This document shows positions 1,003 through 14,603 of a stretch of 64,000 bases of DNA, piece after piece (positions within the stretch are counted from its first letter, which is position 1; each line of letters begins with the position of its first letter). The translations under genes and the position numbers were made by a program. This stretch comes from Helicobacteraceae bacterium (GTDB lineage: Bacteria; Campylobacterota; Campylobacteria; Campylobacterales; Sulfurimonadaceae), in contig CANMJR010000013.1 in NCBI GenBank assembly GCA_947498025.1, positions 1-64,000 of the forward strand, read 5' to 3'. Under the pieces are notes generated by a model. That model ran no database searches. It saw only the letters and a program-made list of their open reading frames with translations, and was not told the origin of the DNA.

Positions 1003-2109
1003 ATGAACAACAATATAAAAAAATCAATTATTTCACTTGATGTAATGCCAAGAGATGTTTATGATAAATTTACTAAATTTGGAAATTTAGCAAATATGAC
1101 ACCGGATGAGATTTGGAGTCATTACCCAAAAACAGGAACAGGCACTTTTAACCCAAATACTATGGTGAAAGAAACTTCTATTATTGAGCCATACTTGATG
1201 GTTCATTATCTTAAACAAAAAGGGATAGAAACCAGATTCTGGTACAACAATGCACTCTTCACCTTTAATGAAAAACTTTTTAGAATTGCTGCGGGCAAAG
1301 TAATAGAAGTAGATATTACTAATCTCTATTTTATATCTTTTAGAGAATCTTTCGCTCACCCTTTTTATAAGATTTTAGAAATAGTTTTAGAAAAAAATGG
1401 TGGCAAACTCGTAAAGCCAAATATGCTCACCATGGCAAATACGGGATGCATGAATAAGCTTTATGCCCTAGCAGAACTCTATCACAGAAGAGAAGAGCTT
1501 TTTGGTGATGTAATCATCCCATTTAATATTACAGCTAGAGATTATCCCGCATTAATTGAGTTTATGAAAGAGAACATGGGTGACAAGGTTGTGTTTAAAA
1601 TAGATTGTGTTCAGGAGGGGCAGGGCGTTATATTTAAAGATTTATCCAAAGAGAACCAACTCGAATCAATTGCAAAAATTTTAAATGCTCATAAAGTAAA
1701 AGGCAAAGAAGTTTTTATAACTGCTGCCGTAGAGATTCTCAATGAGTATAGATGTTATTTTACCAATCATGGTCGTACAAAAACTGTATTTTCAATAAAA
1801 CAGCGTGTAAATAGCGATGAGATAAATGTGTATGAAAGAGATAACATACATATATATAAAAACATATCTGTTAAATGGCTGGAAGTTAAAACAGATTCTA
1901 AAGTATTTTCAGATGCTTCAAAAATAGCAAAATCGATTATGAAAGATATGAGTTACGACACAGGTTGTTTGGAATTTGCACACACAAAAGATGGAAAAAT
2001 AGTATTTTTTGAAGTAAACCAAATGGCCGGACCCCTCCCTTTTGATGGCGAAGACACTACAAACATGACACGCTATTACCATTCGATGTTTGACAAAATG
2101 ATGAATTAG
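1003..2109 (+). CDS. ATP-grasp-like enzyme
   Basis: VVFKIDCVQEGQGVIFKD, EYRCYF and C-terminal CLEFAHTKDGKIVFFEVNQMAG resemble the ATP-grasp lysine/glycine loop and metal-binding E-x-N. Confidence 0.6.
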   Translation: MNNNIKKSIISLDVMPRDVYDKFTKFGNLANMTPDEIWSHYPKTGTGTFNPNTMVKETSIIEPYLMVHYLKQKGIETRFWYNNALFTFNEKLFRIAAGKVIEVDITNLYFISFRESFAHPFYKILEIVLEKNGGKLVKPNMLTMANTGCMNKLYALAELYHRREELFGDVIIPFNITARDYPALIEFMKENMGDKVVFKIDCVQEGQGVIFKDLSKENQLESIAKILNAHKVKGKEVFITAAVEILNEYRCYFTNHGRTKTVFSIKQRVNSDEINVYERDNIHIYKNISVKWLEVKTDSKVFSDASKIAKSIMKDMSYDTGCLEFAHTKDGKIVFFEVNQMAGPLPFDGEDTTNMTRYYHSMFDKMMN

Positions 2110-2133
2110 AACTGTTTCGTAAAAGGATAACAG

Positions 2134-3222
2134 TTGCAGATATTAAAATGGTTTATTCAAAAATTTCCAGAGTATGTAAAGCAAATGAGAGAGTGTAGTT
2201 ACCATTATGATTACACTCATTTAAATCTTCATCATATAGAGGGCGATATTTGGAGTCATACTGTTTTGGCTTACAATAATGCCATAAAATCAAATGCTTC
2301 AGAGCCTCTGAAATGGGCAATACTTCTTCATGATATAGGTAGAATTTTTACAAGACGCGAAAACAGCAAAGAGTCCGAAGTGAGTTTTGGTGAGTTTGAG
2401 GGCATCTCTTGTTTTGTAGCATTAGAAATTTTAAACAAAAGCGATTTATCCGCAAACAAAATAAGCAGAATTCTAAAAATAATATCGTATCAATATACCG
2501 TTATTGACCATATTAAATATGACAAACCCTCTTTTAATGAACTTCTTGAAAAATTTAAGTATGAAAAAGAGTTGTTGAGCGATTTATCGTACTATGTGGA
2601 GTATGATCTCTTTGGAAGAATAGTGGATGAAAGTAGAGTTGAACTCTATGACTACAAAAGAGTAGAAGCTCTACAAAAACATGGTAAAAATGCAGATAAT
2701 TTTAAAAAAGCAAAATCATTAAAACAAAACACACTCTATCTTTTAGTAGGTCCTCCATGCTCCAGAAAAAGCAGCTGGATAGCAGAACAAACTGGAGATT
2801 TCATCGTAGTAAATCGTGATAGCTGTGTCGAGGAAATAGGCAAAAAATATGGAAAAAACAGTTATAACGAAGCCTATGATTTAATGAACGAAAATGAAGA
2901 GATTAAAAAAGAGATAGATGCACTGGAAAAAGAGAGAGAAAATTTTGCGAAAAATTCTCAAAAGAGAGACATTATAATCGACAATCCAAATTTAAGCCTT
3001 AAAAACAGAAAAGAGCAGATTGAAGCATTCTCAAAAACACATAAAATAGAAGTTTTACTCTTCTTAACACCCTTTGATGAATTGGTTGCATGTAACAAAA
3101 AAAGAGAAGAGAATATAAACAAATCCGTTTCTCAAAATGGTCTTATAAACAAATTAGAAACATTTACCTATCCTCTGTTAAATGAAGGAATTAATGAAAT
3201 CTTAATAAAGTTCAATGATTGA
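2134..3222 (+). CDS. HD-domain phosphohydrolase fused to P-loop polynucleotide kinase-like domain (HD-Pnk-like)
   Basis: N-terminal HHIEGDIWSHT...LLHDIGR (HD); C-terminal LLVGPPCSRKSS (Walker A), VVNRDS, IIIDNPNLSLKNR as in Pnk kinases; TTG start. Confidence 0.65.
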   Translation: MQILKWFIQKFPEYVKQMRECSYHYDYTHLNLHHIEGDIWSHTVLAYNNAIKSNASEPLKWAILLHDIGRIFTRRENSKESEVSFGEFEGISCFVALEILNKSDLSANKISRILKIISYQYTVIDHIKYDKPSFNELLEKFKYEKELLSDLSYYVEYDLFGRIVDESRVELYDYKRVEALQKHGKNADNFKKAKSLKQNTLYLLVGPPCSRKSSWIAEQTGDFIVVNRDSCVEEIGKKYGKNSYNEAYDLMNENEEIKKEIDALEKERENFAKNSQKRDIIIDNPNLSLKNRKEQIEAFSKTHKIEVLLFLTPFDELVACNKKREENINKSVSQNGLINKLETFTYPLLNEGINEILIKFND

Positions 3223-4212
3223 GTCAATAAAACTTTGATCAATGCTTTTTTCTTCAGATATATATTTTGCCACATGTGGATAGATTTTTTTTGCAAAAGC
3301 ATCATACTCTTGATTGTTATACCATTTGCCGTTTGAGTGCAATCCACCGCTTACTTTATAAAATGCCCAACCTGCTCCTATGGCAGTAGCAGTTGATTCA
3401 TTGAAAATATTTTTTACTTTCCCAGTTGATGCATGTTTACTGTTTTTAAAATAACTCGTTATCTGTTCTTTGTTTTTATCATAAATCGTATGAGCAATTT
3501 CATGAAAAATAGTAGCGCTTAACAGCCAAGCTATATTTGATTTTGGTTTATTGACTAAGACTCCTATGGATTCTACATCTCCAAGCATAAAAGCGAGCGT
3601 TTTGTCTCCGTCCGGAATCGGATAGAGTACCAAGTATATTTTATCGATATTATTTTTTTTGACGCCATAAAAATGAGCAGCTTTTACGATTAGCTGATCA
3701 TAATCGGCACTCTCCATGGCTTTTTTTATCTCTTGGCTCTTAAGTTTTAATTTCTGCTCATTTGAGTTCCAAATTAACTCCTCATAAATAGGCAAAAAAT
3801 ATTTAAGCATTTCAAAATAGGTATATGTACTGTTATCATCCACGCTATTTTTATAAGAAATTGAAATCTTTTTCAATTCATCCAAATTTTCAGCTACTAC
3901 ACTTTCTATTTTTATCATATTGTAAAAATTGATATTTTTTTTGTATTCATATACTCTTTTAGTTTTTATAGAATCGTAACTTTTAGTAAGTTCAAATAAT
4001 TTTTCTTGTGAAAGTTTATTGTTGCCATATTTTTGATTGTAGATATTTTGAAAAGATTTTAAAGAGTAGGGGGTTTTCATAATTGATTCGCCAAAACTGA
4101 TTAAACCATGCAATTTACTGATTTTAATCTCTACATACTCACTTGCGGATAGGTTAAAAAATTGTAAAAGAAATAGAAATAAAAAAATTATTTTTTTCAA
4201 ACTACTACTCAT
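3202..4212 (-). CDS. Secreted or periplasmic HEXXH metalloprotease-like protein
   Basis: Signal peptide-like N-terminus; ATIFHEIAHTIYD (HEIAH) and downstream NESTATAIG glutamate. Confidence 0.6.
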   Translation of the reverse strand: MSSSLKKIIFLFLFLLQFFNLSASEYVEIKISKLHGLISFGESIMKTPYSLKSFQNIYNQKYGNNKLSQEKLFELTKSYDSIKTKRVYEYKKNINFYNMIKIESVVAENLDELKKISISYKNSVDDNSTYTYFEMLKYFLPIYEELIWNSNEQKLKLKSQEIKKAMESADYDQLIVKAAHFYGVKKNNIDKIYLVLYPIPDGDKTLAFMLGDVESIGVLVNKPKSNIAWLLSATIFHEIAHTIYDKNKEQITSYFKNSKHASTGKVKNIFNESTATAIGAGWAFYKVSGGLHSNGKWYNNQEYDAFAKKIYPHVAKYISEEKSIDQSFIDSIIELY

Positions 4213-4285: not shown

Positions 4286-4912
4286 TTATTTTAACAAAAG
4301 TACGAGTGACACTCTGTCGTTAACATGCAGCTTTGAAAAAATTGAGCCAACATGTGCTTTTACTGTTCTTGTAGTTATCTCAAGCGCCGAGGCAATTGCA
4401 TCGTTTGTGTAGCCTCCGAGAATCAGTTTTACAACTTCAATCTCTTTTGCAGTAAGTCTGTTGTTTAGGAGAGATTCTGACTCCTCTTTTAAGGGTTCAT
4501 CTTTTGAAATTTTAGAGAGAGCGGCTGTCAGTTCAGGGTAGGTCCATATTTTGTCATCCAAAATCGTTTGAAGCATCTGTATAAAGTGAACTGTGAGCAT
4601 TCTTGCATTTCCATAAGCCTTTACATTATGGGCAATAAGCATCTTCCCCGTTGCAATTTCAGGTTCTCTTTCCAAAATAATCATATTTTTTGGTACAGAG
4701 TTTGACGTAATCATTTTATTAATATCACCGGCAACACTATCGTAGTCGGCTATTAAAATGTAATCTGACAGCTCTGCTAGTACATTTTTTAGGGAGACTA
4801 AATCATAGCAGGTGATAGAGTGCTCTATATCATGTTTTACTCTCCACTCCTTAACTATCTCCATGTTCGCACTAAAAAATATAATTTCCATGTTATTTCT
4901 CCGTAAAGACAT
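4286..4912 (-). CDS. LuxR-family (GerE-type HTH) transcriptional regulator with atypical receiver-like N-terminus
   Basis: LTAKEIEVVKLILGGYTNDAIASALEITTRTVKAHVGSIFSKL. Confidence 0.8.
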   Translation of the reverse strand: MSLRRNNMEIIFFSANMEIVKEWRVKHDIEHSITCYDLVSLKNVLAELSDYILIADYDSVAGDINKMITSNSVPKNMIILEREPEIATGKMLIAHNVKAYGNARMLTVHFIQMLQTILDDKIWTYPELTAALSKISKDEPLKEESESLLNNRLTAKEIEVVKLILGGYTNDAIASALEITTRTVKAHVGSIFSKLHVNDRVSLVLLLK

Positions 4913-6239
4913 ACTGCTTTGTTTTTAAGATAGGTTTTAGAATATACTGCATTACCGTTTTCTTGCCCGTAACTATATCAACACTCACCTGCATTCCTGG
5001 GATGATTTTAAGTGGCTTGTCCTCTGTGCCTAAATAACTTTTATCTGTCACAACATGTATAAGATAAAAGGTTTCCTCTTTTTTATCTGTAATAGTGTCC
5101 GGTGAAATAGATTCAACTCTTCCGGTAAGACCGCCATGAATATTAAAAGGGTAGGCCGAAACTTTTACCATAGCCTCTGCATCCGGATGGATAAATGCTA
5201 TGTCAGCGGGCTTTATTTTTATCTCTAAATAGAGTTTTTTACTAGAGGGAACAACCTCTACTAAGTCAGCACCGGGTTTGATGACACCGCCGACGGTATT
5301 TACATAAAGTTTTTGAATAATGCCTGAAACAGGCGACTTAACAACCGTTCTGTCAACTTGGTCGCTTAACTCCACCTGCTGAGTGCCAGTTCTTCCTAGT
5401 TCTGCTGTTACTTTGTTTAACTCCTCTTTAGCAGTGCTTATAAAGAGTTGTTTTGCTGCACTTCTATTGCCTTTGAACTCTTCTACTAGGGATGCTAAAC
5501 GAGGTAAAGAGAGTTTTGCAGCCTCAATATCATTTTCAATTGCACTCGCCTCTCTTTTGAGCTTTAAGAAGTCAACTTTTGATTTTACGCCCTGTGTTAC
5601 CATGGGTTCCGTCATGGCTATCTCTTCTGTTACAAACTCCAGAGATTTTTGTAGTGATGATATTCTGGCTCTTGCTTCTGTTAGTGCCTGTTTTTTTTGA
5701 CTTATCTGCTCCACAATTGAACCGTCTTTCGCTTCAAACTCAAGTTTATTTGAATCATAAAGCTTTTTTGCAAGGGAGAGTTGTTCGTTTAGCTCTTGGC
5801 TATCCGTTGGAACTATTACAAATTGAATATCATTTGCCTCTGCCTCAAGTCTCTGTCTTTGTGCTTCTAGCTCTTCATACTTCATCTGATTTGTAAGAGA
5901 GGTTGACACAGATTTAGCATTGCTGATTTTTAATATATCCTGCCCCGCTTCAACTCTTTCTCCTTCGTTTACAAGGATTGCTTCAACTATTCCACCCTCA
6001 AGGTTCTGAATAACTTGGTTTTTTCCATAGGGAACGACCTCTCCGTCCCCCTTTGTAATCTCATCAATCTCTGCAAAAGATGCCCATATAATAGATACAA
6101 AAATAGTAATAAGCCAAATTTTTATAACTCTGCTTGTTTTAGAAGGGGTAACTTGCAAAATAGCCGCACTTAGGCTATTCATAAATTCATAGTCTTTTTC
6201 AGTATATTCTAATGGTTTTGGTTTGTCAACTTTCTTCAA
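4893..6239 (-). CDS. HlyD-family type I secretion periplasmic adaptor
   Basis: Single N-terminal TM, GDGEVVPYGKNQVIQNLEGGIVEAILVNEGERV biotinyl-lipoyl motif, T1SS HlyD C-terminus. Confidence 0.9.
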   Translation of the reverse strand: MKKVDKPKPLEYTEKDYEFMNSLSAAILQVTPSKTSRVIKIWLITIFVSIIWASFAEIDEITKGDGEVVPYGKNQVIQNLEGGIVEAILVNEGERVEAGQDILKISNAKSVSTSLTNQMKYEELEAQRQRLEAEANDIQFVIVPTDSQELNEQLSLAKKLYDSNKLEFEAKDGSIVEQISQKKQALTEARARISSLQKSLEFVTEEIAMTEPMVTQGVKSKVDFLKLKREASAIENDIEAAKLSLPRLASLVEEFKGNRSAAKQLFISTAKEELNKVTAELGRTGTQQVELSDQVDRTVVKSPVSGIIQKLYVNTVGGVIKPGADLVEVVPSSKKLYLEIKIKPADIAFIHPDAEAMVKVSAYPFNIHGGLTGRVESISPDTITDKKEETFYLIHVVTDKSYLGTEDKPLKIIPGMQVSVDIVTGKKTVMQYILKPILKTKQYVFTEK

Positions 6240-8397
6240 TTTTTTTGCCGCCGCTTTGTAATTTTTTGAGTGCTATATCTTTTTGAGCATCAATGAAAAC
6301 TTTTCCTTCATTCATAACTATGATTCTTGTGACAATTTTTAGCAGATTCATTTTTTGCGTTACTAATAGAGCAGTTTTTCCTTTCAAATTTTCACCCAAG
6401 CTGTCAATAAGTCTAGACTCCGATAACTGATCCATGGCATTGCTAGGCTCATCCATGAGCATAATAGGAGAGTCAAGTAAAAATGCACGAGCAATCCCGA
6501 TACTCTGTTTCTGACCGCCGGATAATCCCTGTCCTCTCTCGCCTATCGGCATTTCATACCCTTTGGGATGTTTTTTTACAAACTCAGAGGTTCCGCTGAT
6601 AATGGATGCTCTTAGCATGTCACTATCAGAACAGTGTGAAGCACGGTAGGTAATATTATCTTTCACAGTTCCGCGAAAGAGCATAATGTCTTGAGAAACA
6701 TAACCGATATTTTTTCGAAGATCCGCAGGGTCGATTTGGTTGATATCTATGCCATCTATTAAAATTTGTCCTGAGTCCGGCTCATAAAGTCCTAGAATAA
6801 GCTTTTGAATCGTACTCTTTCCTGAGCCGATGCGACCGATTATCGCTACATGCTCTCCCGGCTCTATCGTGAACGAGACATTTTTTAGTATCTGAAACCC
6901 TGTTTTTGGGTATGCAAATGTTACATCTATAAACTCGATTCTGCCGCTGAAATCCGGTCTTTTTACAAATTTTTTGCCGGCAGGTCTCTCGCTCGGTTGA
7001 GATAATATGTCGTTTATAGCGGAATAGGATGCTTTTGTGTTCTCATAATTGGTAAGTATTCCGGCAACTTGTCCCATAGGTCCAAGCACCCTCCCTGTTA
7101 AAATATTAATAGCTATTAAAGCACCCATAGAAAGCTCAAAGGCTTGAATGAGATAAACCCCATAAACTATTATCATAACTGTGTTTAATTGAATCAAAAA
7201 TTGAGTAATTGTCGGAATAGAAACGGATAACAGGCGAGTGGACATGCTTTTTGTAGCTATTTCACCGGTTGACTCTTCCCATTTCCACTGCGCCTGGTTG
7301 AGAGTACCAAGAGTTTTGAGTGTTTCAATATTGTTGAGTGTTTCAATTAAAATAGAACTTTTTATAGCACTTGCTTCTTTCGTATTGTCTATGCTGGCTC
7401 TTAATGGCTTTTTTATAAATATTGCGTAACCTATAATTAAAAACATAGTTACTAAAGGAATAGCAACTATCGAGCCACCGATATACCAAATAATAACTAA
7501 GAATATAACTGCGAATGGAAGGTCAATTATAGCGGCCATTGTAGCATTTGTTAAAAAGCTTCTTATATTATCAAAATCTCTTAAGTGATTAGAAAATGCA
7601 CCTACGGATGTTGGAATGTGTGACATTTTTAAGTCAAGTACTTTTTCAAAAATAATGGATGCCATGATAACATCACTCTTTTTTGCGGCACTCTCTAGTA
7701 AGTTGGTTCTTGTAAATTTTAAAAATGTATCAATAATATAGATAATAATAATACCGATTGAAAATACCCAAAGTGTTTCTATCGCATTATTTGGAACAAC
7801 CCTGTCGTAAATATTCATAGTAAAGAGAGGAGAAGCAACAATAAAAAGGTTTATTAGGAGAGATGCATATAAAACATCTTTATAAATGCCCAATGACAAT
7901 TTTAGAGTACTCCAAAACCAATGTTTCTGGTCTAAATGAAGAGATCTTGTGTTGTCATCTACATGTTCAAAAGCTTTTTTTATCATAAAGCCAAAGCCGA
8001 TATACTCATCTTTTAGTATATCTATATCAACCCACTGTTCAACAGCATCTTCAGTCGGCATGATTATTTTAGCTTCTTGCCCATCATCACTAAATCTATC
8101 GAGAATGCATGAGCCTTGATTGGAGAGTAGAATTATCATAGGGAGTTGGAGCGGAGAGATTTGTTCAAGAGGTCTTCTTAAGATGCTCGATTTTAGTCCG
8201 GCTCTTTCAGCTGCACGAGAGAAGAGACCTTTTGCATTATTTATTGAAAATAGCTCAGGCGTTTCTCTTCCCACCTCTATAGGTAACCCCGCAGTTAAAG
8301 CCTCTGCGGAGAATGGTTTATGATAAAGTTTTGTAAATAGAACCAAGCAGTCAAGCAAGGAGTCTATTTTCAAATTATCAACTCTTGTTACAAACAT
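6226..8397 (-). CDS. Type I secretion system ABC transporter/permease (LapB/HlyB-like, with N-terminal peptidase-like domain)
   Basis: IIGRIGSGKST Walker A, LSGGQKQ signature, ABC membrane domain, C39-like N-terminal region. Confidence 0.9.
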   Translation of the reverse strand: MFVTRVDNLKIDSLLDCLVLFTKLYHKPFSAEALTAGLPIEVGRETPELFSINNAKGLFSRAAERAGLKSSILRRPLEQISPLQLPMIILLSNQGSCILDRFSDDGQEAKIIMPTEDAVEQWVDIDILKDEYIGFGFMIKKAFEHVDDNTRSLHLDQKHWFWSTLKLSLGIYKDVLYASLLINLFIVASPLFTMNIYDRVVPNNAIETLWVFSIGIIIIYIIDTFLKFTRTNLLESAAKKSDVIMASIIFEKVLDLKMSHIPTSVGAFSNHLRDFDNIRSFLTNATMAAIIDLPFAVIFLVIIWYIGGSIVAIPLVTMFLIIGYAIFIKKPLRASIDNTKEASAIKSSILIETLNNIETLKTLGTLNQAQWKWEESTGEIATKSMSTRLLSVSIPTITQFLIQLNTVMIIVYGVYLIQAFELSMGALIAINILTGRVLGPMGQVAGILTNYENTKASYSAINDILSQPSERPAGKKFVKRPDFSGRIEFIDVTFAYPKTGFQILKNVSFTIEPGEHVAIIGRIGSGKSTIQKLILGLYEPDSGQILIDGIDINQIDPADLRKNIGYVSQDIMLFRGTVKDNITYRASHCSDSDMLRASIISGTSEFVKKHPKGYEMPIGERGQGLSGGQKQSIGIARAFLLDSPIMLMDEPSNAMDQLSESRLIDSLGENLKGKTALLVTQKMNLLKIVTRIIVMNEGKVFIDAQKDIALKKLQSGGKKIEES

Positions 8398-8434: not shown

Positions 8435-10282
8435 TTAGTTATTTGCCGCATTCGTACTAGGCATCTTAAGTTTTCTTACAGCTATATCTACTCTGTTATT
8501 TAACTCAAGACCTTCGTTTTCAAATAGACTGTTTGTAAACATAGGCGCTTTGTTTGACTGCGCATGAACCGTTATATTTTCCTCTTTTGCTCCGGCTTCT
8601 ATTAGCTTTTCTTTAACTACGCTGGCTCTTTGCGCAGAGAGGAGAAGCATTTTTGCTTCATTCAGATTCTCATCGTCAACATTTCCGAAAACTTCAAATT
8701 TCATATTATCAAAGCCATACGGTTTAATCTGATCAATTAAATCATTAAGTTTCTTCTGACCTTTGTGAGTTAAGTCAGCATCTCTTGTTCCAAATAAAAA
8801 TCCGCTGTATCTCTCAATTTTCAGAGTATCATCATAGGTAAGCTCACATCCATAAGTGCTTCTCATTTTGTAGGTGAGTGAGTTGTTACATATATCCTGC
8901 TCATCAACAATTAAATCTTTATCCCCGTCAAGCATTATAGGGAGAGCATCGTTGTTTGAAGGGGCGTCCCCTTTTAATCCTACCTTTTCATACTCTATAT
9001 CTTCGCTGCCGATTACTGAGGGTACAAGTGTACCGAGAGCATCTAATATTCGGTACTTAGCAAAAAGAGCACTATACTCCGTATTGATAATTTGTGATTT
9101 TGAATTACTAAAATCACTCTGAGCAGACAGAAGATCCAAAAGTGTGCGGCGCCCCAAGTCATACTCTTTTTTATAAAGGGTAAGTGTTTTTTCCGAAAAT
9201 TCTCTATACCTCTGAAGGTGAACCATCTGTTGATTTAACTTTTCATAAGCTGCCCATGCTAAATTCAGATCTTCTATTGTATTGCGTCTAAGTTTATTTT
9301 TTATTTGAACTTCTTTATGAACTTCGCTTACACTTTTTTGTAGGGCTGCGGTATCGGCAAAACCGTTAAATAGATTGTATGAAAGATACGCCATTGCTCT
9401 GAAAGCATCACTCTCTCCTTCGGTTGCACTTAAATTTTTACTCATAGATTGGGACACTTCAACATCTACTTTAGGATAAAAAGGCGCCTTACTTTTATGA
9501 TTTGTCGCTTCTGCTAATCCAATATTGTATTTACTAACCAACAGGGACGGATTGTTTTGCATTGCAAATTGTGCTGCATCTTCAACTGTCTGGGGAAATC
9601 TAATCTCTTCGGTCGGTTTTTCCATACTTTCAATATCAAGATATCTTCCTAAAACAGCGTGCATGTTATATGTGACATCAAGGAGTGTATTCTCTTGAAC
9701 CACATAGTTTGATTTTGCCAACGCCAAAGATGACTCAATTTTATTTACCTCAGAGAGAGTTGTTAATCCGGAATCGTAGAGCTTTTGAACTTTAGCAATA
9801 ATCTCTTCGTTTATATCAATAGTTTCTTTAGCATTATCAAGTAACTCTCTTTGTCTTAGCACCTGCAAATAGGTATTTACCATGGCAAAAGAGATAGCAT
9901 TTACCTGTTCTATATATTTGTAGGCGGCGGAGAGAGTTCTATTTTCATTCTCTTTAATCTGATATGTAGTCTCAAACCCTTTAAAAATATTTTGCGTATA
10001 TTTTAAAGAGTTGTTATACACATTGTAATCAAAAGATTGATTTGCTACCCCAAGAGGACGATTATTCCTCTCTGTATGCTCATATCCAACACCAACCGAT
10101 ACATCGAGCTTTGGATAGTAGCCGGCCTGAGCAATCGTTACATCCTCTTTTGTAGAGTTGTAGTTTTTTAGCTGCTCCAAGATGGTTGGGTTTGTTGATA
10201 AAACTTCTTCTACAGTGGTTTTAAGATTTTGTGCATTAAGCAGCGTGCATAAAGATAAAGATAATAATATTTTTTTGTTCAT
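8435..10282 (-). CDS. TolC-family outer membrane protein fused to C-terminal OmpA-like domain
   Basis: TolC repeats (QNIFKGFETTYQIKENEN..., YNLFNGFADTAALQKS) followed by DGDKDLIVDEQDIC and an OmpA-like region ending LNNRVDIAVRKL. Confidence 0.85.
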   Translation of the reverse strand: MNKKILLSLSLCTLLNAQNLKTTVEEVLSTNPTILEQLKNYNSTKEDVTIAQAGYYPKLDVSVGVGYEHTERNNRPLGVANQSFDYNVYNNSLKYTQNIFKGFETTYQIKENENRTLSAAYKYIEQVNAISFAMVNTYLQVLRQRELLDNAKETIDINEEIIAKVQKLYDSGLTTLSEVNKIESSLALAKSNYVVQENTLLDVTYNMHAVLGRYLDIESMEKPTEEIRFPQTVEDAAQFAMQNNPSLLVSKYNIGLAEATNHKSKAPFYPKVDVEVSQSMSKNLSATEGESDAFRAMAYLSYNLFNGFADTAALQKSVSEVHKEVQIKNKLRRNTIEDLNLAWAAYEKLNQQMVHLQRYREFSEKTLTLYKKEYDLGRRTLLDLLSAQSDFSNSKSQIINTEYSALFAKYRILDALGTLVPSVIGSEDIEYEKVGLKGDAPSNNDALPIMLDGDKDLIVDEQDICNNSLTYKMRSTYGCELTYDDTLKIERYSGFLFGTRDADLTHKGQKKLNDLIDQIKPYGFDNMKFEVFGNVDDENLNEAKMLLLSAQRASVVKEKLIEAGAKEENITVHAQSNKAPMFTNSLFENEGLELNNRVDIAVRKLKMPSTNAANN

Positions 10283-11561: not shown

Positions 11562-14500
11562 ATGCGTTCATCTGACTTAGACTCTATCATCAACAATAAA
11601 GAAAAATTTCTCACTCAAACCTACTTTGATTTGCAGAGATATTTTGAAGAAAAGTATGGAAAAGATACTGTTGTTTTTATGGAAATCGGAACTTTTTTTG
11701 AAGTTTATGAGGTAAATAACGATGATGAACAGATAGGTAAGGCAAAAGAGATAGCCGAACTTTTAAATATTCAGCTTACCAAAAAAAATAAAAATATTGT
11801 AGAGAACTCAGACAAAAATCCGCTTCTGGCAGGTGTTCCTGCCGTTTCTTTTGAGAGGTACTTAAGCCGTATAATCTCAGAACAAAAATATACCGTAATC
11901 GTCGTAAAACAAAAAGGCAACCCTCCCAATGTTAGCCGTTATATCTCGCAAATTGTCTCTCCCGGCACAAACTTTGACCATATCATTGATAACGACGATA
12001 ATTTTATCGTCTCAATATTGGTGGATAAACACAGAGATATTTATAACATCGGTTACTCCGCCATAGATGTAACAACGGGAAAAACATGGCTTTATGAGAC
12101 ACATGGAACAAGTGAAGACCCATCGTATGCGCTTGATGAAGTCTTTAACCTCTTAAATATTTACAGAACTTCAGAGATTGTTGTTACTTTTTTAGAGGGT
12201 GTTGAGAACCAAAAACATGTGATGCAGTATCTTGAAATTGCTGAACACTATCACTACAGCGTAAATAATGACAGACCTAAAATAGAGTTTCAAAATGAGC
12301 TTTTTCGTGAAGTGTATCAGATAAAATCTCTTCTCTCTGCCATAGAGCATCTGGATTTAGAACGATCTCCCATGATTACCGAATCTTTGGCTATTTTGAT
12401 TCATTTTATCGTAGAGCATGACATTCATATAGTGCAAAAACTCGATTTACCTCGCACCATAGACAACCGCCGTTTTATGTATTTGGGTAACAATGCGCTG
12501 GAGCAAGTCGGAATAATCTCAAAAGATAACAAAGAATTCACGCTCTTAAGAATGATGGATAGAAGCGCTACCGCTATAGGAAAAAGACTTTTAAAAGAGA
12601 GACTTTTAAACCCGATTATAGAAAAAGAGGAGCTTGAGAGACGCTATAACTTAATAGAAAAAGTTGCTTCGCATGTTCGTTTTCTTGATGAGACGATGCG
12701 GGGAATTTATGATTTAGAGAGACTCTCACGCCGTCTTGATTTGGCACGGCTTCACCCTTTTGAGATGAATCACATGTATGACTCCATGTTGAGTGTTAAA
12801 GAGATCATCGGATATGCAAAAAAGCATAAGATCCAAAAAAATTTATTTCATGAGACAGAAGTGGATGAGTTTTTAAGAGATATAAGTAAAAGCATAGATT
12901 TGGATATTTCTCGCCGTTTTACGCATGCAACGGTGGATGATAACTTTTTGATGAACGGGGTGGATGAAGCGGTGGATACGCTGGTGCGAGAAAACTCAGT
13001 GATGCTTGTTGCTTTTGAAGATATTATGATTCAAATTGAGAGTATGTTAGAGAGTTCTAATAGCGGGAGTTCTAGCCGTTTAGTCACTCTGGGGCTTCTT
13101 GAAAAAGAGGGCTACTATATTTCTCTTAGCAAAAACAGATTCTCTATGATTGAGGGTGTCTTTAAAAATGATGAGAATTTTGCAAAATTCAGCGTCAAAA
13201 AACTGACAAACAGTGTAAAAATTACATCTGATTTTACGGACAATCTCTCAGACAAAATTATGAAAAACCGCCGTAAAATAGTCTCACTCGTCAAAGAGAG
13301 ATTTATACAGCTCCAAGGAGTGTATGAGAGACGATACTCTCTCCTTTTTGACAGGGTAATAGCCTATATTGCAGACCTTGACGTGGCACTTAGCTCTTCA
13401 AAAGTTGCACAAATATACAACCATTCCAGACCCATGATAATCGATGCAAAAGAGGATGAAAACTTTATGCAAATCATGCAGCTCAGGCACCCGCTCATAG
13501 AGGTTCAGGAGCGAGGCGGAATCTATGTTCCAAACGATATTGTCATGGGCAATCGTGCCTACATGGATTTGCCTCATCCGAGTAGTGTAATGCTAGATGT
13601 TGCCGTACATGACGGATATCCGATAAACGGAGTTTTGCTTTATGGCATCAATTCCAGCGGTAAAAGTTCATTGATGAAAAGCATAGGAATTGCCATACTC
13701 ATGGCGCAATCTGGTTTTTTTGTGAGTGCCGCCGTTATGAAGTTTACCCTTTTTGATTCGCTCTTTACGCGCATTGTCTCGAAGGATAATCTTGCAAAAG
13801 GGCTTTCAACTTTTGCGGTGGAGATGTTGGAGTTAAAAAATATCTTCAACCGTGCCACAGTTCGCTCACTTGTCCTCGGCGATGAGATAAGCCACGGAAC
13901 AGAAACCCTCTCAGGCGTGGCAATAGTTGCAAGTGCTATCATCAAACTTGCAAAACTTCGTTCACTCTTTTTGTTCGCAACTCACCTGCATCAGCTCTCC
14001 ACCATGCAGGAAATTACAACGCTCGATTCAGTGGTAGATTTGCACCTAAGCGTGGAGTATGACGAAGAGAAGGACGCTCTTATTTTTAACCGTGTTTTAC
14101 AAGCAGGAAGCGGAAGCAGTATTTATGGTTTGGAGTTTGCAAAATCACTCCACATGGACAGCGACTTTTTAGATACGGCAAACCGCATCCGAAAAAGACT
14201 TGCAAATGATTTTGATGAGCTGGAACTTTTAGTGAAGAAAAAAACAAGCAAATACAACAAAGAGTTGTATGTAACTAAATGTATTATTTGTGGAGCTGTA
14301 GCCGAAGATGTACATCACATTTCACAACGCTCACTTGCAGATAAAGCAGGTTTTATCGGGCATTTTCATCAAAACAACAAGCACAATTTAATTCCGCTCT
14401 GTAAAGAGCATCACAACCAAATACATGACGGCAAAATCAAAGTCGATGGTTTTGTCATGACCTCAAACGGTTTGGAGCTGAAGTTTGAAGAGCAGATGAG

Positions 14501-14603
14501 TAAGCCAAAAAATGTTGAGGTTTTGGAGCCGAAAATTAATGAAGTTAAAGAGATGGAAGAGGTGAAAGTGGAGGGTAAGAAGTTTGTTTTGGATGATTGG
14601 TAA
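11562..14603 (+). CDS. MutS-family protein with C-terminal HNH endonuclease domain (MutS7-like)
   Basis: GINSSGKSSLMKSIGIAILMAQSG (MutS P-loop), ATHLHQLS; C-terminal CIICGAVAEDVHHISQRS...NLIPLCKEHHNQIHDG (HNH). Confidence 0.9.
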   Translation: MRSSDLDSIINNKEKFLTQTYFDLQRYFEEKYGKDTVVFMEIGTFFEVYEVNNDDEQIGKAKEIAELLNIQLTKKNKNIVENSDKNPLLAGVPAVSFERYLSRIISEQKYTVIVVKQKGNPPNVSRYISQIVSPGTNFDHIIDNDDNFIVSILVDKHRDIYNIGYSAIDVTTGKTWLYETHGTSEDPSYALDEVFNLLNIYRTSEIVVTFLEGVENQKHVMQYLEIAEHYHYSVNNDRPKIEFQNELFREVYQIKSLLSAIEHLDLERSPMITESLAILIHFIVEHDIHIVQKLDLPRTIDNRRFMYLGNNALEQVGIISKDNKEFTLLRMMDRSATAIGKRLLKERLLNPIIEKEELERRYNLIEKVASHVRFLDETMRGIYDLERLSRRLDLARLHPFEMNHMYDSMLSVKEIIGYAKKHKIQKNLFHETEVDEFLRDISKSIDLDISRRFTHATVDDNFLMNGVDEAVDTLVRENSVMLVAFEDIMIQIESMLESSNSGSSSRLVTLGLLEKEGYYISLSKNRFSMIEGVFKNDENFAKFSVKKLTNSVKITSDFTDNLSDKIMKNRRKIVSLVKERFIQLQGVYERRYSLLFDRVIAYIADLDVALSSSKVAQIYNHSRPMIIDAKEDENFMQIMQLRHPLIEVQERGGIYVPNDIVMGNRAYMDLPHPSSVMLDVAVHDGYPINGVLLYGINSSGKSSLMKSIGIAILMAQSGFFVSAAVMKFTLFDSLFTRIVSKDNLAKGLSTFAVEMLELKNIFNRATVRSLVLGDEISHGTETLSGVAIVASAIIKLAKLRSLFLFATHLHQLSTMQEITTLDSVVDLHLSVEYDEEKDALIFNRVLQAGSGSSIYGLEFAKSLHMDSDFLDTANRIRKRLANDFDELELLVKKKTSKYNKELYVTKCIICGAVAEDVHHISQRSLADKAGFIGHFHQNNKHNLIPLCKEHHNQIHDGKIKVDGFVMTSNGLELKFEEQMSKPKNVEVLEPKINEVKEMEEVKVEGKKFVLDDW

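Follow-up and report, generated by a model that had tools for sequence, protein, structure and literature searches.

A predicted ATP-grasp ligase gene (ORF1) lies beside the gene for a giant type I secretion system (T1SS) adhesin in Sulfurimonadaceae DNA, and every ORF1 homolog with adequate flanking sequence adjoins such an adhesin gene, the stalk of which carries dense E-x-T-x-D repeats. From this linkage, and from the pairing of the enzyme with the repeat, we infer that ORF1 probably acts on the adhesin repeats.

Layout of the locus

The window, that is, the whole 64,000 nt stretch analyzed, begins with the following features. The names of the last four genes, and the signal-peptide-like N-terminus of the accessory gene product, come from reading the sequence.

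3–881, + strand: giant T1SS adhesin, last 292 aa, with E-x-T-x-D repeats followed by a conserved C-terminal module
899–926, + strand: stem-loop 3' of the adhesin stop codon (-16.8 kcal/mol, z -2.6)
1003–2109, + strand: ORF1, predicted ATP-grasp ligase and proposed modifier of the adhesin repeats (alignments A1/A4, fold search, linkage, repeat statistics)
2134–3222, + strand: ORF2, HD-Pnk (Pfam, phrog_6931, profile and alignment evidence)
3202–4212, - strand: accessory gene, weakly IrrE/M78 metallopeptidase-like (Pfam)
4286–4912, - strand: LuxR-type regulator, end of the T1SS operon
4893–6239, - strand: HlyD-type membrane fusion protein
6226–8397, - strand: T1SS ABC exporter
8435–10282, - strand: TolC-type outer-membrane factor

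The adhesin gene is cut by the contig edge and its 5' part is missing. The part present has a repeat density of 11 motifs per 100 aa, and its C-terminal module is homologous to that of other Sulfurimonas adhesins. What the first-pass annotation called a repeat protein (1–881) is the tail of this truncated T1SS adhesin, and its remark that ORF1 and ORF2 are oddly placed, between that protein and a T1SS locus, was right. The stem-loop that follows is terminator-like and has no strong T tract; a terminator scan did not call it. ORF1 (ATG start, 368 aa) and ORF2 (TTG start, 362 aa) are both on the + strand and 24 nt apart, just as first described. Both are genuine genes, since they have homologs that align over their full length in other genomes (46–77% identity for ORF1, except L020, an ORF1-like fragment at a contig end; 41–57% for ORF2).

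The accessory gene, one of those in the variable slot described below, is convergent with ORF2 and its product is probably secreted; homologs of it lie near the ATP-grasp gene in L029 and near the LuxR gene in L070. Further along the window (11562–14603) is a gene for a MutS-like protein of 1013 aa with an apparent C-terminal HNH-type motif by sequence reading, and many of the loci surveyed have a similar gene beside the T1SS operon.

ORF1 is a predicted ATP-grasp enzyme

ORF1 gave only sub-threshold matches to Pfam and curated family models, including 12.5 bits against the graspetide ligase model TIGR04187 (cut-off 350), and no match in a PDB sequence search. Phage and plasmid relatives were sought without a match, and none was found to the RNA-ligase families of Pfam. 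A Foldseek search with its AlphaFold2 model (pLDDT 76.5, pTM 0.77) retrieved D-Ala ligases, RimK, synapsin, ArgX and graspetide ligases with E-values of about 1e-8 to 1e-6, the matches to VanA, RimK and synapsin being at about 1e-8 with a probability of 1.00. By its predicted fold ORF1 is thus a member of the ATP-grasp superfamily, and since the global TM values of the model are low (0.3–0.5), the match identifies the superfamily but does not reach down to the subfamily. Structure prediction, which had been proposed as a check, therefore bore out the ATP-grasp assignment of ORF1 at superfamily level but not at family level, while the ORF2 model was poor (pLDDT 43.9) and was left unused.

The catalytic residues of ATP-grasp enzymes, including the ExR motif of the peptide-forming ligases, have been listed (PMC4431377). 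ORF1 carries the linker lysine (K152), the RAGNYA lysine (K199), the glycine loop EGxGV at 205–209 (EGQGV), the ExR motif (E248-x-R250), the acidic residue of the kinase-like domain (E324) and the ExN motif (E337-x-N339). E248-Y-R250 is invariant in alignment A4, K152, K199, E324 and E337-x-N339 are invariant or conserved, and the glycine loop is conserved as well. Because these residues match the published list, ORF1 is probably an active member of the peptide-forming ATP-grasp assemblage and not of the R2K clade (CDC123 family). The latter is a group of predicted protein modifiers, and four of seven ORF1-family members give sub-threshold matches to Pfam R2K_2 (best 5e-4), but R2K enzymes lack the linker lysine and the ssxGbGl loop and have a second Lys/Arg in the loop (PMC4431377), whereas ORF1 keeps both the linker lysine (K152) and the GbGl loop (EGQGV), and the clade was ruled out.

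ORF1 is linked to adhesins with a dense E-x-T-x-D repeat

Nine ORF1 loci had enough flanking sequence (the window, L017, L018, L019, L028, L029, L030, L038 and L039), two of which, L038 and L039, are from another family of the order. ORF1 is found downstream of the adhesin gene, divergent from it, between two adhesin genes, or between the LuxR and adhesin genes. A divergent ORF1-like fragment (L020/L031) has no adhesin gene on one side, and its contig is too short on the other. The ORF1 family is rare, and the adhesins beside it are 1400–2100 aa long with hundreds of Glu-x-Thr-x-Asp repeats.

The pentads form long tracts, often in 13-residue units (5+8 spacing), with the consensus [AV][VI]xE[DNSQ]T[TVI]DE[DNSQ]T[TVI]D; an example of a repeat unit is AVAEDTTDEQTTD. 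They are rich in Thr, Asp and Glu, contain 0–1.2% Lys and no Cys, and are extremely acidic. In the densest 100 aa there are 11–17 motifs in all nine ORF1-linked adhesins, while of 50 adhesin loci without ORF1 a single one (L120, G015) reaches 13 and none of the others exceeds 2. The difference in dense repeats (9/9 versus 1/50) gives a Fisher value of 8e-10 on rows that are not phylogenetically independent, with a negative set that is imperfect, as many of the 50 adhesins are partial sequences, and with a motif that was chosen after the linked adhesins had been seen.

To address some of these limits (partial sequence, motif choice and kinship), six-frame searches were run with the repeat as query. 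Among 135 genomes of the genus the repeat was found in five (G000, G086, G491, G015 and G047), and all except G015 are ORF1-positive. In a sample of 397 genomes of the phylum it occurred in G000, G381 and G413 only, all three of which carry ORF1, as does no other genome sampled. Within the genus, repeat and ORF1 fail to coincide in just two genomes, G017 and G015. G017 has ORF1, and the repeat of its locus L019 is a variant that falls below the search cut-off. As for G015, an ORF1 homolog was not found in this draft genome, in which the contig ends inside the repeat adhesin; the nearest relatives of its exporter and of its adhesin end are in G086, where ORF1 lies beyond the 5' end of the adhesin gene, and the corresponding stretch is missing from the G015 contig.

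Unlinked adhesins (L103, L115, L088, L021 and L022) have N- and C-terminal modules homologous to those of the linked ones. Both ends of the L038 adhesin and the N-terminus of the L039 adhesin are unrelated to those of the other linked adhesins, and both proteins carry the repeat. Since the ends are common to unlinked adhesins, it is the repeat, not the ends, that tracks ORF1. A conserved N-terminal leader was sought in the linked adhesins and none was found, the N-terminal modules of L038 and L039 being unrelated to the others.

When the two traits (ORF1 and repeat) are mapped on an exporter ATPase tree, parsimony requires six changes for each. In phylogenetically independent pairs the two traits agree in four, disagree in none and tie in one; with so few pairs this is not significant (p 0.125). 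In several loci the repeats use a mixture of threonine codons, as selection acting on the protein might produce.

A variable accessory slot at T1SS loci

With the LuxR-type gene as anchor, 60 further T1SS loci of the genus were surveyed. The adhesin gene commonly converges directly on the LuxR gene, and in other loci additional genes occupy this position. In four Sulfurimonas genomes a Hanks-type Ser/Thr kinase with Sel1 repeats is encoded between the two (L074:3132-4379, L080:8418-9668, L082:10325-11569 and L106:8473-9720), assigned by Pfam in L074 and L106 and by similar N-terminal sequence and length in L080 and L082. A PF11397 GlcNAc-transferase gene lies beside the adhesin gene in three loci (L021:7625-8557, L095:10220-11131 and L111:10330-11256). 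Pro/Thr-rich repeats are present in two of these three adhesins, and a pairing of this enzyme with Pro/Thr stalks was dropped on that count and because L071 has such repeats with no transferase gene in view. The slot of L077 has a gene for an Asp2-like protein, below the Pfam cut-off.

A recurrent block beside the T1SS operon (L072:10246-16425, similar in L073, L107, L126 and L127) encodes three proteins: a member of an unassigned family (about 605 aa), a second protein (about 400 aa) and a third (about 1040 aa) that matches Mur ligases and, weakly, Fic. In the slot, the 605 aa family is often followed by the Mur-ligase/Fic-like protein, and (TD)n repeats also occur in several genomes with this block.

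Judged by their sequences, several slot genes plausibly specify protein modifiers, a pattern rather than a proof, and this resemblance was counted in support of ORF1 as an adhesin modifier.

Proposed function of ORF1

ATP-grasp enzymes in general activate a carboxylate with ATP. ORF1 would serve specifically to modify the stalk of the neighboring T1SS adhesin. Acting in the cytoplasm, either ahead of adhesin export by the T1SS (outer-membrane protein, ABC exporter and HlyD, with the LuxR-type regulator) or in the course of it, the enzyme would activate carboxylates in this way and create bonds on the Thr/Asp/Glu repeats. The likeliest bond would be an ester between the hydroxyl of a repeat threonine and a nearby Asp or Glu carboxylate, as in graspetides, and is favored over amide cross-links because threonine and acidic residues are abundant, lysine is almost absent and cysteine is lacking. 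By this analogy, an ester cross-link is a possible but tentative assignment for the product of ORF1. Equally tentative is a broader proposal, in which ORF1 would install more than 100 side-chain esters along the Glu-x-Thr-x-Asp stalk, as one case of a scheme whereby Sulfurimonas loci may swap modifying enzymes (ATP-grasp, Ser/Thr kinase, GlcNAc-transferase and HD-Pnk) together with matching stalks.

The main chemical alternative, with ORF1 still acting on the adhesin, is a RimK/TTLL-like addition of Glu, Gly or other amino acids to acidic side chains or to the C-terminus, which is somewhat unlikely. In the fold search the graspetide ligases rank no higher than RimK, ArgX and synapsin, the ExR motif places ORF1 among peptide-forming ligases, and the acidity of the repeats would suit such an enzyme. 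However, the regular threonine of E-x-T-x-D is not needed for glutamylation of acidic residues, and the fold match does not decide the matter.

An explanation that dispenses with modification is that of a recombination hot spot around the adhesin gene, where ORF1 and ORF2 would be passengers without a functional tie to the adhesin, inherited along with one of its alleles. The slot is variable and the trait patchy, and the repeat and ORF1 could have moved as one block. Against this, the pairing persists in different gene orders and on either side of the adhesin gene, it recurs with unrelated adhesin N-termini in another family, and there are at least six changes on the exporter tree with a 4:0 agreement of pairs, which together make mere co-inheritance unlikely.

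ORF2 is an HD-Pnk, and its pairing with ORF1 lacks conservation

By every sequence test made, ORF2 is an HD-Pnk. It matches the Pfam families AAA_33 (8e-10) and HD (9e-4), aligns over its full length with phrog_6931 (2.8e-37), and a profile of seven cellular homologs matches T4 Pnk (1ly1 and 1ltq; about 1e-6) and Pnkp1 (4xrp; 3e-8). The motifs reported earlier (HHIEGDIWSHT, LLHDIGR, GPPCSRKSS, VVNRDS and IIIDNPNLSLKNR) are present as quoted, and the domain assignments first made for both proteins, ATP-grasp for ORF1 and HD plus P-loop kinase for ORF2, agree with the fold, residue, Pfam and profile evidence. The HD residues (H34, H42, H66-D67 and D158) recur in the homologs from cells and phages alike, except where residues of L030 are masked, and the kinase residues (P-loop G206-S213, R228-D229, D283, R292 and R324) are likewise conserved between phage and cellular versions. 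At the position aligned with R38 of T4 Pnk, neither ORF2 nor the phage homologs have Arg.

Full-length relatives with 26–29% identity occur in Campylobacter phages (CP220 and F341); L134:3965-4996 and L135:3920-4960 are such phage homologs. Several related phage records annotate the homolog as polyA polymerase, which looks wrong. ORF2 shares its domain order, HD and P-loop motifs and full-length alignment with these phage proteins (phrog_6931) and with end-healing HD-Pnk enzymes such as that of Runella slithyformis. It differs in being encoded at adhesin loci, and in that neither a PF09414 RNA ligase nor RtcB (PF01139) was found in the seven HD-Pnk genomes searched (two of them 57% and 84% complete). 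That search was confined to the families PF09414 and PF01139.

Seven genomes of the genus were found with HD-Pnk, and in six the gene adjoins an adhesin gene, the exception being L024 (G084). At L022:8932-15349 (G062), a single adhesin gene whose product has a long (TD)n stalk lies between two HD-Pnk genes that differ from each other. A pairing of HD-Pnk with (TD)n stalks seemed strong in the surveyed loci and was dropped, as (TD)n repeats occur in eight genomes without detected HD-Pnk. ORF2 may have been recruited to the same accessory slot as ORF1, with nucleic-acid ends as its target by family and possibly the adhesin by context. In the latter case, the kinase would phosphorylate threonine hydroxyls of the Thr-rich acidic stalk and the HD domain would be the reversing phosphoesterase. 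The adjacency in six of seven genomes, the Thr/acid low-complexity stalks of the neighboring adhesins (where the stalk is visible) and the Ser/Thr kinase in the same slot elsewhere fit this idea. It is nonetheless doubtful, given the eight (TD)n genomes, the position of the G084 gene away from an adhesin, and active-site residues that match the nucleic-acid family. We know of no Pnk-type kinase that acts on protein.

The first-pass annotation had proposed that ORF1 and ORF2 form a joint module for nucleic-acid end repair, and had suggested a survey for conserved co-occurrence. Among 149 relatives, homologs of ORF1 (G017, G047, G086 and G090) and of ORF2 (G002, G032, G062, G073 and G084) are in disjoint genomes, apart from the window's own. 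A second adjacency is found in L030 (NORP168), with a 16 nt gap; its coordinates coincide with those of the ORF1 match in G491. Since there are two adjacencies only and the genes are otherwise in different genomes, the pairing is not conserved, and the module was rejected on this lack of linkage together with the absence of PF09414 ligases and RtcB from the seven HD-Pnk genomes searched. That HD-Pnk heals RNA or DNA ends (2',3'-phosphate removal, 5'-OH phosphorylation) while the ATP-grasp enzyme seals or tags them is very improbable: HD-Pnk catalytic residues are shared with phage homologs, one of which (F341) lies about 1.7 kb upstream of an annotated RNA ligase gene, but ORF1 has no RNA-ligase match, carries the ExR of peptide-forming ligases (PMC4431377) and tracks adhesin repeats, and homologs of ORF1 or ORF2 alone also adjoin giant adhesins.

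Comparison with known systems

Among the closest parallels to the proposed role of ORF1 are the graspetides (microviridin, plesiocin and thuringinin), made by enzymes of the ATP-grasp fold such as MdnC and PsnB from core peptides with Thr and acidic residues (PMC8939145). In both, an ATP-grasp ligase gene lies beside that of a substrate with a repeated Thr/Asp/Glu core (9/9 loci for ORF1), with export genes nearby, and the ORF1 fold matches PsnB, PruB, AMdnB and MdnC. Graspetides, however, derive from a small precursor peptide, whereas the presumed substrate of ORF1 is an adhesin of 1400–2100 aa; the linked adhesins share no common leader, and ORF1 has no match to a ligase model at the curated threshold. 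The RimK, LysX-ArgX and TTL-like ligases, some of which act on acidic proteins, also have the ATP-grasp fold with ExR and ExN and are among the top fold matches of ORF1; the differences are that the sequence similarity of ORF1 is below the family cut-offs, and that its presumed substrate is a repeat adhesin.

Ester cross-links of threonine are found in bacterial adhesins, where they form autocatalytically inside folded Ig-like domains (PMC12679949, PMC10619420). Cross-linking of an adhesin shaft by esters would be common to these and to the ORF1 system as proposed, but ORF1 is a separate enzyme, presumably ATP-dependent, and its substrate would be low-complexity repeats. The Asp2/accessory Sec glyco-adhesins are similar in that dedicated modifying enzymes are encoded beside one surface adhesin, while their secretion system and chemistry are unlike those of the ORF1 locus. 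A literature search found no report joining ATP-grasp, adhesin and type I secretion, nor one of a giant T1SS adhesin as an apparent ATP-grasp substrate.

These results correct the nucleic-acid-repair reading of the ORF1-ORF2 pair and suggest that sulfur-oxidizing Campylobacterota have an exchangeable repertoire of enzymes that modify adhesins. If ORF1 does act on the repeats, modification of the graspetide or RimK kind would extend from small peptides and ribosomal proteins to stalks on the Gram-negative outer surface, and the enzyme would have a naturally repetitive, easily synthesized substrate. If the cross-link scheme is also true, these adhesins would represent a new class, hardened by an enzyme.
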